Shown here: piece by piece, positions 59,196 through 61,746 of the stretch
Layout: each line of letters opens with the position of its first letter
How positions within the stretch are numbered: the stretch's first letter is position 1
Assembly: GCA_019694875.1 (NCBI GenBank)
Contig: JAIBBC010000002.1
Span: forward strand, 992,001-1,056,000
DNA from: Cyclobacteriaceae bacterium
GTDB lineage: Bacteria > Bacteroidota > Bacteroidia > Cytophagales > Cyclobacteriaceae
Length of the DNA: 64,000 nucleotides
Direction: 5' to 3'
Made by a program: the position numbers and the translations under genes
Notes under the pieces: model-generated
The model's database searches: none
Seen by the model: the letters and a program-made list of their open reading frames with translations, nothing else
Told to the model about the DNA's origin: nothing

Positions 59196-59660
59196 TCAGG
59201 AAAGGTTCAGATTCCGGTCGAGGCTCTCTTCCAGGGAGATCATGGTCTCGGTTCGCTCGATGCCGTCTACCTGCTGCATCTTGTCGTGAAGCACTTCTTT
59301 CAGGTGATTAGTATCGCGGCAGTGGATTTTTACGAACATCGAGTAGTTGCCCGTGGTGTAGTGAATACTGGTTATTTCCTGGATTTCCTTCAGTCTGGCC
59401 ACTACTTTGTCGTATAACGCGCTCTTTTCCAGGAAGATGCCAATGAAAGCCGTAATGTCGTAGCCCAAACGGGCGTAATTCAGCTTAAGGGTAGTCTTTT
59501 CCACGATTCCGGCTTCTTCGAGCTTGCTCATCCGCACGTGCACGGTTCCCTGTGAAACATTGACCCTCCGGGCGACCTCCGTGTAAGGCTTTTTGGCGTC
59601 ATCCCTCAAAATCTCGAGAATCTTCAGGTCGGTATTGTCGATTTCATAATTTTTGGCCAT
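59196..59660 (-). CDS. Lrp/AsnC-family transcriptional regulator
   Basis: 154 residues from the ATG at 59660 (an earlier one at 59684 gives a poorer start). Helix-turn-helix with DLKILEILRDDAKKPYTEVARRVNVS and VHVRMSKLEEAGIVEKTTL; then the RAM domain with YTTGNYSMFVKIHC. It likely binds amino acids as effectors. It lies before the suf operon with an 85-bp gap, both on the minus strand; whether it regulates suf is unknown. Confidence 0.94.
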   Translation of the reverse strand: MAKNYEIDNTDLKILEILRDDAKKPYTEVARRVNVSQGTVHVRMSKLEEAGIVEKTTLKLNYARLGYDITAFIGIFLEKSALYDKVVARLKEIQEITSIHYTTGNYSMFVKIHCRDTNHLKEVLHDKMQQVDGIERTETMISLEESLDRNLNLS

Positions 59661-59762
59661 TTCAATGCAGGTTTTTTGAATCAAATTGTAAATATAGCGA
59701 TGAATATTAAAAAGTATTCAATTCTTTGACACATTACTTGAAATACATACAGGTCATACGTT

Positions 59763-59769
59763 TACTTTG
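59763..59769 (+). promoter_or_regulatory. Possible promoter of the tRNA-like RNA
   Basis: TACTTTG at 59763-59769, one base short of TAnnTTTG, with TTG at 59738-59740 22 bp upstream. It would start transcription close to the RNA's acceptor stem. Confidence 0.4.
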
Positions 59770-59784
59770 CTGAAGTAATTACAA

Positions 59785-59945
59785 TGTAAGGTGTTGAAAC
59801 TGGCAGACAAGCCCTCCTGTCTCGGGGGTGGAGAGTCAAGGATAAACGCAGGATAAGCCTCCGACTTGTCGGGGACTGGGGTTGACCACCGCAGTTGTTC
59901 TGTAGCTAACTTCTCCGTGGAGGTTCGAAGCCTTCCCTTACAGCA
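59785..59945 (+). ncRNA. Oversized tRNA-like cloverleaf RNA
   Basis: The sequence folds into a class II tRNA-like cloverleaf. Acceptor: TGTAAGG (59785-59791) with CCTTACA (59936-59942), 7 bp. D arm: TTG/CAA with loop AAACTGGCAGA. Anticodon-like arm: CCCTC/GGGGG with 7-nt loop CTGTCTC (59817-59823; middle triplet GTC). T arm: GGAGG/CCTTC with loop TTCGAAG (59924-59930). The variable region is 90 nt (59829-59918) against 14-20 usual; it is closed by GGAGAG/TTCTCC and holds the hairpin CTCCGAC-TT-GTCGGGG. No CCA is encoded. A pyrimidine follows the triplet, so it is unlikely to be an ordinary decoding tRNA. Confidence 0.6.
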
Positions 59946-59973
59946 GTTTAGGTTAGTACATTTAGGAAAGTGC

Positions 59974-60012
59974 AAAGTCATCCCGTCCGGAGGGGTGACT
60001 TTTTGTTTTTTG
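59974..60012 (+). terminator. Rho-independent terminator of the tRNA-like RNA
   Basis: AAAGTCATCCC pairs with GGGGTGACTTT (one G-U) around GTCCGGA, followed by TTTTTGTTTTTT. It ends a short plus-strand transcript whose only visible content is the tRNA-like domain. Confidence 0.88.
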
Positions 60013-60075
60013 CACAATCTGTAATGAACAATCGTTTGTTATCTTCACACCTTAAGACTTCTAATACTTTGTGTG

Positions 60076-61746
60076 ATGGCAAACTTCCCCTGGATCAAAA
60101 ATTATCCTGAAGGCATTCCGGCCGAGATCAAGCTCTATGAATATGAGTCGCTTCCTGACCTGTTCGAAAAGAGCTGTGCGAAATTCAAAGACCGGGTTGC
60201 ATTCGAGAACATGGGAGCTACCATGACTTTTGCGGAAGTCGATCGTCTGTCGCGTGACTTTGCTGCCTATCTGCAAAGCATCGGGTTGAAGAAAGGTGAC
60301 CGCATTGCGATCCAGATGCCGAACCTGCTTCAGTTTCCTGTAGCATTTTTCGGAGCGTTGCGTGCAGGCTTAACCGTTGTCAATACAAATCCGCTTTATA
60401 CTCCGCGCGAGATGGAGCATCAGTTCAAAGACAGCGGTGCAAAGGCTATTGTGATTGTAGAAAACTTCGCGAACAGTCTGGAGAAGATCATCAAACACAC
60501 GGTAATCGAACACATCATCGTCACCAGAATTGGTGACATGCTGCCCGGTCTGAAAGGCTGGATCACGAACTTTGTTGTCAAGAACATCAAGAAGATGGTA
60601 CCGGCCTATCACCTCGATAACGTGACGTGGTTTAACGACACCCTCAGGAAAGGTGCTTCATTAAAGTTTACGAAACCAGCCATTGCGCTTGAAGATAATG
60701 CCGTACTGCAATACACAGGGGGAACTACGGGAATTGCGAAAGGTGCCCAACTGTCGCACGCTAACATTGTTGCGCATAACTCAATGATTACGCAATGGTT
60801 TAAGCCGTATCTGAAGCAGCAGGTGTCGGAAGAGATCATCATCACTGCGATACCGATGTATCACATCTTTGCACTTACCGTTAACGGAGTGTTGATGTTC
60901 AGTGTAGGAGCGAAGAGTGTGTTAATCACCAACCCGCGTGATATTCCGGGCTTCTGCAAGGAATTAAAGAAACACAAGTTCACCATCATCACCGGTGTGA
61001 ATACGTTGTTCAACGGACTTATGAACAATGCCGAATTCGCTAAGCTTGATTTTTCACATTTGAAAGGTGCAGTAGGCGGAGGTATGGCTGTTCAGGATAT
61101 AGTTGCTAAAAAATGGGAACAGGTTACAGGTAAACCACTGGTGGAAGGTTACGGCCTGAGTGAAACATCACCTGTGTTATGTTGCAATCCGCTTGACGGA
61201 ACACACCGGCTGGGCACGATCGGTTTACCAATGCCGAGCACCGAGGTTGCTATTTTTGATGATGCAGGCAATCAGCTGCCGCAAGGCGAACGTGGTGAAA
61301 TCTGCGCGCGGGGGCCGCAGGTAATGAAGGGTTACTGGGAAAAAGACAACGAAGGCGTGTTCTTTGAAGGCGGCTGGTTTAAAACCGGTGACATTGGCAT
61401 GATGGATCCTGACGGATTCTTCAAAATTGTCGATCGTAAAAAAGACATGATTAAAGTTTCGGGTTTTAACGTGTTCCCGAATGAAATTGAAAACGTAGCT
61501 GCAGGCTATCCGAAAGTGCTTGAAGTTGCCGCCATCGGTGTGCCGGATGAGAAGTCGGGCGAGGCTATCAAACTTTTTGTCATCAAGCGCGATGAATCAC
61601 TCAGTGAAGAGGAATTAAAAAAATACCTCCATGAGAATCTCACCAATTATAAAGTACCTAAATACGTAGTCTTCCGGAAGGAGTTGCCGAAAACAAATGT
61701 GGGAAAAATCCTGAGGCGTGCTTTGAAAGAAGAAGAGGTGAAGTGA
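60076..61746 (+). CDS. fadD: Long-chain fatty acid-CoA ligase
   Basis: 556 residues from the ATG at 60076 (a GTG one codon before is also in frame). ANL-superfamily adenylate-forming enzyme: LQYTGGTTGIAKGAQLSHANI, EGYGLSETSPV, GWFKTGDIGMMD, DRKKDMIKVSGFNVFP and K in PKTNVGKILRRAL. It activates fatty acids as acyl-AMP then acyl-CoA at the inner membrane for oxidation or lipid synthesis. It follows the RNA's terminator by 60 bp and therefore has its own promoter. The exact chain length is unknown. Confidence 0.95.
   Translation: MANFPWIKNYPEGIPAEIKLYEYESLPDLFEKSCAKFKDRVAFENMGATMTFAEVDRLSRDFAAYLQSIGLKKGDRIAIQMPNLLQFPVAFFGALRAGLTVVNTNPLYTPREMEHQFKDSGAKAIVIVENFANSLEKIIKHTVIEHIIVTRIGDMLPGLKGWITNFVVKNIKKMVPAYHLDNVTWFNDTLRKGASLKFTKPAIALEDNAVLQYTGGTTGIAKGAQLSHANIVAHNSMITQWFKPYLKQQVSEEIIITAIPMYHIFALTVNGVLMFSVGAKSVLITNPRDIPGFCKELKKHKFTIITGVNTLFNGLMNNAEFAKLDFSHLKGAVGGGMAVQDIVAKKWEQVTGKPLVEGYGLSETSPVLCCNPLDGTHRLGTIGLPMPSTEVAIFDDAGNQLPQGERGEICARGPQVMKGYWEKDNEGVFFEGGWFKTGDIGMMDPDGFFKIVDRKKDMIKVSGFNVFPNEIENVAAGYPKVLEVAAIGVPDEKSGEAIKLFVIKRDESLSEEELKKYLHENLTNYKVPKYVVFRKELPKTNVGKILRRALKEEEVK

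Follow-up and report, generated by a model that had tools for sequence, protein, structure and literature searches.

The question raised by positions 59785-59943 (plus strand) of a stretch of Cyclobacteriaceae DNA (64,000 nucleotides; assembly GCA_019694875.1, contig JAIBBC010000002.1, positions 992,001 to 1,056,000; referred to as a whole as the window) is what purpose is served by an RNA that has the four arms of a tRNA, a large variable region and a terminator of its own. The cloverleaf with its terminator, as described there in an initial annotation from the letters alone, is confirmed, and the tRNA-like RNA is a conserved RNA family and not a product of decay. We consider it probable that the RNA serves outside decoding as a dedicated tRNA-like carrier, which AspRS loads with Asp and on which GatCAB then makes Asn; the wider proposition, that free asparagine is produced by turnover on this dedicated RNA, under AsnC control and with phages carrying copies among their tRNA genes, seems to us evenly balanced between right and wrong. 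The RNA comprises the following features.

59785..59943, plus strand: body of the tRNA-like RNA, U1 to G73 (cloverleaf and covariation)
59785..59791, plus strand: acceptor stem, 5' strand UGUAAGG; U1-A72 is the putative GatCAB element and G2-C71 the putative AspRS element
59794..59810, plus strand: D arm with a 3-bp stem, UUG/CAA; the 10-25 pair switches between U-A, A-U and G-C
59812..59828, plus strand: anticodon arm (96.8% of cells paired in 118 rows)
59819..59823, plus strand: G34 U35 C36 U37 C38 (counts over 207 copies)
59830..59833, plus strand: variable-domain stem, 5' strand (covariation)
59840..59846, plus strand: internal loop, 5' strand GGAUAAA, conserved (alignment)
59848..59903, plus strand: distal part of the variable domain, of lineage-dependent length (constrained fold; the closing pair covaries)
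59879..59889, plus strand: GGGTTGACCAC, motif of the long subtype (GACCAC counts in bacterial and viral copies)
59906..59910, plus strand: internal loop, 3' strand CUAAC, conserved (its two A's in 206 of 207 copies)
59913..59916, plus strand: variable-domain stem, 3' strand (covariation)
59919..59935, plus strand: T arm with loop UUCGAAG (T54, T55, C56 and A58 in 207 of 207 copies)
59936..59944, plus strand: acceptor stem, 3' strand CCUUACA, with discriminator G73 and C74
59974..60011, plus strand: intrinsic terminator (stem 59974-60002 plus T run)

The RNA body is 159 nt long when G73 is counted, and C74 is encoded at 59944. The standard arm lengths claimed earlier were all found, i.e. an acceptor stem of 7 bp (59785-59791 with 59936-59942), a D stem of 3 bp (59794-59796 with 59808-59810), an anticodon stem of 5 bp (59812-59816 with 59824-59828) with a 7-nt loop (CTGTCTC), and a T stem of 5 bp (59919-59923 with 59931-59935) with the loop TTCGAAG, as were the variable region, which spaces the anticodon arm about 90 nt from the T arm, and the terminator.

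Folded as a single sequence, the RNA is no better than its shuffles (z -0.39; 67 of 200 shuffles as good), and the evidence for the fold is therefore comparative; the D stem is missing from the free minimum-energy fold. An alignment check for compensatory changes, proposed along with the initial annotation, revealed such changes in most stems. When 30 copies are aligned with MAFFT, 98.7% of the cells pair, with double-sided changes in nine of 26 pairs (none in the anticodon stem), and none of 500 shuffles reached any of five covariation measures. In 118 distinct rows, one of them the 77-nt sequence L100 (see below), 98.0% of cells are paired and double changes occur in 18 of 26 pairs, every helix included; this alignment was made against a covariance model and leans to the structure. 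The earlier view of a functional RNA rather than decay is thus borne out by compensatory changes and, as described next, by family-wide conservation.

By its acceptor, D, anticodon and T stems with covariation, and by its elbow bases, the RNA has the cloverleaf of a tRNA. Standard tRNA models do not recognize it, the exception being a viral subtype of about 94 nt whose variable arm is short, 11 copies of which ARAGORN calls tRNA-Asp(gtc). ARAGORN found no tRNA in the window and none in the first 30 loci. Rfam 15 gave no family at gathering score in the window, a search of 59500-60300 at E<=10 returned no tRNA family and four weak matches, and the Rfam tRNA model had no match at eight other loci at E<=1, so that this check, likewise proposed earlier, yielded no family that explains the fold. 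The matches below gathering score were discarded (RefA9, a PreQ1 fragment, ST7-OT4_3 and HOTTIP_2 in the window region; Thr_leader, mir-9457 and mir-15 at other loci). Y RNA, tmRNA, SelC and intron-bearing tRNA were dropped on anatomy, and the idea of an anti-Shine-Dalgarno mimic (CCTCC in the anticodon arm) was abandoned, as stems in other lineages read CCCGC or CCAGC.

DNA matches at E<=1 were found in 47 of 59 genomes, the window's own included, many of them far stronger and several genomes with tandem copies; by DNA search, the window genome has one copy. The covariance model, built from the 30-copy alignment and run over 396 genomes of the class, gave two score groups, with 73 genomes in 19 families at E<=1e-20 (hand count). 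Strong matches are 108-196 nt long in the part of the match list shown, and the weaker group (about 60 bits or less, about 80-88 nt) presumably represents ordinary tRNA-Leu; a 77-nt match of 70 bits in genome G048 lies between the groups, and this genome was not counted as RNA-positive in the class sample. A pattern scan of named genomes gave at least 80 loci, the 80 listed holding 102 copies; among these loci are Mucilaginibacter, Pedobacter, Chitinophaga, Hymenobacter, Pontibacter, Algoriphagus, Cyclobacterium, Dyadobacter, Spirosoma, Fulvivirga, Saprospiraceae and one Ignavibacteriales metagenome-assembled genome. The contig of the latter (L113), which might reflect transfer or mis-binning, carries the RNA together with a divergent AsnC-like gene.

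With identical copies counted once, there are 207 distinct bacterial copies of 108-197 nt for the whole RNA, the length of the variable domain differing between lineages: beyond a conserved internal loop (AUAAA opposite CUAAC), it ranges from a short hairpin to more than 80 nt. The GACCAC motif, which marks the long subtype, is present in 79 of these 207 and in 55 of 66 viral copies. Long and short subtypes stand side by side at nine counted loci, and two or three short ones at 34; extra tandem or nearby copies were observed at L045, L046, L047 and L051 (long plus short) and at L017, L044, L050, L054, L070 and L071. L100 (1501-1577, minus strand; in f13) is a 77-nt tRNA-like sequence with a similar acceptor and no long variable domain; it is outside the counts of 207 and 117 copies and inside the 118-row alignment.

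The bases that are conserved in this family point to two enzymes. Over the 207 copies, A72, G2, C71, G73 and C74 are invariant, as are U48, T54, T55, C56 and A58, and U1 is present in 206. Position 34 is G in 188 of 206 copies (A 8, U 5, C 5), U35 and C36 are present in 206 of 206, and C38 in 205 of 207; position 37 is U in 184, C in 16 and G in seven, never A, and position 33 is U in 169, G in 26 and C in 11. For about half of the 207 copies, the locus was picked up by a search pattern in which U35, C36 and C38 are fixed. In the 117 pattern-free copies, U1-A72, G2-C71, G73 and C74 are invariant (117 of 117); position 34 is G in 111, U in three and C in two, U35 and C36 are present in 116, C38 in 115, and position 37 is U in 103, C in nine and G in five, one copy having a loop deletion.

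A decoding tRNA has U33 and a purine at position 37, a combination that the family does not keep (the window RNA itself has U33 but U37). The doubt about ordinary decoding expressed in the initial annotation was well placed, since position 37 is never A and position 33 varies; that the RNA decodes codons appears unlikely.

Strong identity elements for Asp are G73, G34, U35, C36 and C38; G2-C71 matters too, and G1-C72 is the typical first pair in tRNA-Asp (PMC9976931). For E. coli AspRS, GUC, G73, G2:C71, C38 and G10 are listed, the elements of GluRS differ, and AspRSs are reported to have put no aspartate on tRNA-Glu (PMC6523644). Bacterial GatCAB requires the pair U1-A72 (PMC4206432). The window RNA carries G34, U35, C36, C38, G73 and G2-C71 of the tRNA-Asp set; the G1-C72 pair is not a feature of the 207 copies, and U1-A72 is found in 206 of them and in 61 of 66 viral copies. 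As far as sequence can tell, the identity elements are chimeric, combining an AspRS set (mostly G34; U35, C36, C38, G2-C71, G73) with the GatCAB pair U1-A72, and the RNA therefore looks built for charging by AspRS and amidation by GatCAB.

The search pattern that fixes U35, C36 and C38 also matched at least 120 stretches on IMG/VR contigs, and 77 of 80 fetched stretches (L309-L388; contigs up to 287 kb, taken as viral from IMG/VR) carry the RNA, at 74-132 bits. In 66 distinct complete viral copies (the truncated L338 was left out, and U35, C36 and C38 are fixed by the pattern), G34, G2-C71, G73 and C74 are invariant and position 37 is never A. A search of the viral contigs with one bacterial GatB query, sensitive to close relatives only, found no relative. 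For the phage records of INPHARED, two queries matched one unannotated uncultured phage (LR756504) and three other queries gave no match.

Co-occurrence of the RNA with enzyme genes was determined in sets of 75 and 80 genomes chosen by hand from the covariance-model results and from those for family f58, which appears, from shared contigs and sequence likeness, to contain Pedobacter- and Mucilaginibacter-like genomes; the 80-genome set comprises 46 of the 121 f58 genomes and 34 others, i.e. 36 with the RNA and 44 without, with E<=1e-20 defining RNA-positive genomes in f58. Among the 75 genomes, gatB was above cut-off in 41 of 41 RNA-positive genomes (own genome included) in comparison to 19 of 34 RNA-negative ones; aspS was present in all 75 (74 over cut-off). 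The 121 genomes of f58 divide into 74 with RNA and gatB, 39 with neither, two with the RNA only and six with gatB only. In the 80-genome set, GlnRS is present in 64 and AsnRS in 78 genomes; RNA and gatB agree in 59 of the 64 glnS-positive genomes (both 27, neither 32, gatB only 3, RNA only 2), and gatB is present in all nine RNA-negative genomes without glnS, where it is needed for Gln-tRNA.

The E. coli-type asparagine synthetase AsnB (hidden Markov model match from 1 to about 387; open frame of 559-573 aa in f58) shows the opposite distribution, with 20 of 28 RNA-negative f58 genomes (20 of the 22 that lack both RNA and gatB) versus none of 18 RNA-positive f58 genomes and none of 18 other RNA-positive genomes in the 80-genome set. 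The split into AsnB types was made mostly by model span and open-frame length, and ten proteins were scanned with NCBIfam: two E. coli-type proteins of f58 gave 930 and 920 bits with NF006949 (cut-off 499), and eight longer AsnB-like proteins of RNA-positive genomes at most 307 bits; the nearest solved structure of one E. coli-type AsnB tested is E. coli AsnB (1CT9). Of 16 RNA-negative genomes outside f58, four have an E. coli-type match (G065, G070, G077, G181), one has a partial match at a contig end (G092) and one a 438-aa match (G066). AsnA was over cut-off in seven of the 80 genomes, five of them RNA-negative genomes of genus g84 and two RNA-positive (G522, G224). The window's own genome has gatB, aspS, asnS and glnS, no AsnA, and a single AsnB-like protein, which is one of the longer ones. 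An asnS tree of 43 genomes of f58 (G456, G470 and G480 are outside the tree, and row G455 is a very long branch) requires six changes for the RNA, six for gatB and three for AsnB. Its well supported branches give three independent pairs that differ in the RNA; on average, gatB follows the RNA in 1.6 of these, with one opposite gatB pair in a few of 200 pairings, and AsnB runs against the RNA in 1.3.

The RNA also has a recurrent neighbour.

59196..59684, minus strand: gene for an AsnC-like regulator, divergent and upstream of the RNA (PF01037, PF13404)

This gene had been labelled Lrp; its product is closer to AsnC, the best PDB match being E. coli AsnC (2cg4, 125.7 bits, versus 44.8 bits for Lrp, 2gqq), and a link to Lrp and leucine was dropped upon this match. 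At 115 of 174 loci, an AsnC-like open reading frame (ORF) is found upstream of the RNA in divergent orientation, and all 116 such ORFs are so arranged, with a gap to the RNA of 86-419 nt (median 149). In eight pairs of the 174 loci the copies are identical, in most cases where one organism is present in two collections; after merging loci that share a copy, the ORF is present at 110 of 166. The other 59 of the 174 loci lack it, 52 of them with a flank of 700 bases or more; some of the 59 are additional copies next to RluD- and AsmA-like genes (named by likeness). Other neighbour clusters are sufB-like at 31 and fadD-like at 28 of the 174 loci, and no further ORF cluster occurs at more than 11 loci within flanks of 1.5-3 kb. 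In 34 RNA-negative genomes, a search for AsnC gave a close relative in four (G060, G095, G191 and G103; E below 2e-45) and a more distant one in two others; the covariance model found no RNA beside the AsnC relatives of RNA-negative genomes, and gatB is missing in three of the four. In G191 and G095, the AsnC gene, a trailer-like stretch and a hairpin are kept and the RNA body is missing (by eye). The RNA-less AsnC loci L221 and L223, which show this arrangement, resemble a deletion scar, with a promoter-like TTTG box in L223 only.

In the mechanism that we propose, AspRS would charge the RNA with Asp via the Asp-type anticodon loop, G2-C71 and G73, and GatCAB would recognize U1-A72 and amidate Asp to Asn on the RNA; tRNA-Asp is not an expected substrate of GatCAB because of its G1-C72. 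Asn would then be released from the RNA, for AsnRS. The altered loop (non-conserved U33, never A37) and the large variable domain would keep the Asn-charged RNA off the ribosome, inside which it would place Asn at Asp codons. The genes asnC and asnA of E. coli are divergently arranged. By analogy, the divergent AsnC-like regulator probably controls the RNA by asparagine level as AsnC does asnA in E. coli, where AsnC activates asnA, less so with asparagine present (PMC8707732). An amino-acid acceptor is favoured over the regulator proposed in the initial annotation because of the gatB co-occurrence, the absence of E. coli-type AsnB and the combined AspRS and GatCAB identity set.

Several observations weigh against such a carrier, chiefly that 18 copies lack G34, that AsnB-like paralogs are present and that independent swaps are few. 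Position 34, a strong Asp determinant, is A, U or C in 18 of 206 bacterial copies, in lineages that include Hymenobacter, Pontibacter, Ekhidna, G336/G404 and f13, and the ten copies with U34 or C34 are not expected to be good AspRS substrates; the case for Asn is weakest in G336, which has U34 and no match to AsnA or the AsnB family. The A34 (L105, L106, L107, L127, L133, L153, L155), C34 (L081, L084, L123, L132, L166) and U34 loci (L066, L067, L099, L149, L159) all keep U35 and C36. Only 39 of 207 copies have the G10 listed for E. coli AspRS, U35, C36 and C38 are tested by the 117 pattern-free copies only because the pattern fixes them elsewhere, and five of 66 viral copies, all of the 94-nt subtype, have A1-U72. 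AsnB-like proteins above the TIGR01536 cut-off are present in 31 of 36 RNA-positive genomes (all except G336, G452, G492, G059 and G046), and since these longer paralogs pass this broader cut-off, they may make asparagine; AsnA is present in two of the 36, of which G224 belongs to a C34 lineage, and eight of the 28 RNA-negative f58 genomes also lack E. coli-type AsnB. GlnRS is missing in seven of 36 RNA-positive genomes (G224, G071, G097, G101, G102, G113, G120), so that GatCAB has another use there; the RNA occurs without gatB in G465 and G548 (assemblies of 180 and 320 contigs), and gatB and glnS without the RNA in G457, G496 and G537. The sign test on the three independent pairs of the asnS tree is not significant, and Fisher p-values for the co-occurrence ignore relatedness. 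No deacylase was identified for the release of Asn.

The alternative that survives best, though we regard it as unlikely, is a regulatory decoy or sensor, in which the RNA, charged or not, binds AspRS and/or GatCAB and reports the supply of Asp or Asn, e.g. to AsnC or by titrating the enzymes, and is no biosynthetic intermediate. Its AspRS and GatCAB elements would be equally expected for such a role, and the tie to AsnC and the terminator of its own fit as well; regulation of synthetases by tRNA-like mRNA structures is known from other systems (PMC9976931). A decoy alone, however, leaves unexplained that E. coli-type AsnB is found in none of the 36 RNA-positive genomes versus 20 of the 22 RNA- and gatB-negative f58 genomes.

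Aminoacyl-tRNAs feed non-ribosomal transferases in other bacteria, and Asn (or Asp) on the RNA might likewise be donated to a transferase for cell wall, lipid or peptide. A non-decoding loop with intact elbow and acceptor end would suit this role, which we nevertheless judge improbable: no transferase gene is conserved beside the RNA within the 1.5-3 kb flanks of the 174 loci, and the AsnB pattern points to free Asn. Somewhat more doubtful still is an unusual translating tRNA that reads Asp codons or serves special translation states; in its favour, another tRNA lies within 1 kb at 49 of the 77 viral loci, but 37 of 206 copies have a base other than U at position 33, none has A at position 37, position 34 varies, the variable domain is long, and Asn on a GUC anticodon would be harmful. 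A decayed tRNA or transcribed relic, also considered in the initial annotation, is scarcely credible for this family, for although ARAGORN and Rfam miss the window RNA, its single fold is no better than shuffles and lineages do vary in the length of the variable domain, most stems show compensatory changes and 19 families of the class sample have copies, which argues against decay.

The proposed carrier for asparagine synthesis has its closest counterpart among known systems in tRNA-dependent Asn synthesis on tRNA-Asn by non-discriminating AspRS and GatCAB, as in Bdellovibrio and Deinococcus, a route found with AsnRS and GlnRS and without AsnA/AsnB, some genera of Bacteroidetes included (PMC4206432). 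Loading of Asp by AspRS and amidation by GatCAB on an RNA with U1-A72 would be shared with this route (PMC4206432), whereas here the RNA is a separate one with an Asp-type loop, a large variable domain and its own AsnC-linked gene. While the pathway is thus of a known kind, a separate non-decoding RNA for it was not met in the open-access literature, in which, as judged by titles and the beginnings of abstracts, no description of such an RNA was recognized (subscription papers and preprints were outside this scope). Canonical tRNA-Asp shares GUC, C38, G73 and G2-C71; the RNA described here differs from it by U1-A72 in place of G1-C72, by the long variable domain and by a pyrimidine or G at position 37. 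The pseudo-tRNA tRNAOther of Bacillus cereus is similarly tRNA-like and outside translation; it is proposed to be part of a larger regulatory RNA, and its abstract gives no link to GatCAB or asparagine (PMC3399842). Like the asnC-asnA pair of E. coli, in which AsnC activates an asparagine-making gene (PMC8707732), the locus has an AsnC-like gene, which here, in contrast, adjoins an RNA gene and not asnA.

If true, the asparagine carrier would explain Asn supply in many Bacteroidota that have AsnRS, GlnRS and GatCAB and no classical asparagine synthetase, with no non-discriminating AspRS needed; the RNA would be a cofactor of primary metabolism and a present-day example of a non-decoding RNA on which an amino acid is made, and its presence on viral contigs would make it the RNA counterpart of auxiliary metabolic genes. 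Upon confirmation, many environmental bacteria would make asparagine on an RNA carrier in place of the usual enzyme. An RNA family without a match in Rfam 15 would be added in addition.

A candidate promoter element and a trailer flank the RNA.

59762..59769, plus strand: TTACTTTG, putative; resembles TAnnTTTG, the Bacteroidota -7 element

A scan for promoters of the sigma-70 type around the RNA gave no match; boxes like TTACTTTG are seen by eye upstream of many of 112 printed copies. A mechanical 87-aa ORF on the minus strand overlaps the RNA, and similar ORFs are found at two of the 174 loci only, the window's own included. Common to several lineages, again by eye, is a T-rich trailer such as TTTAGGTTTATAATTGGTTAG or TTTTGGGTTTATTGTTAATTGACTAAAG between RNA and terminator, represented in the window by positions 59946-59959.
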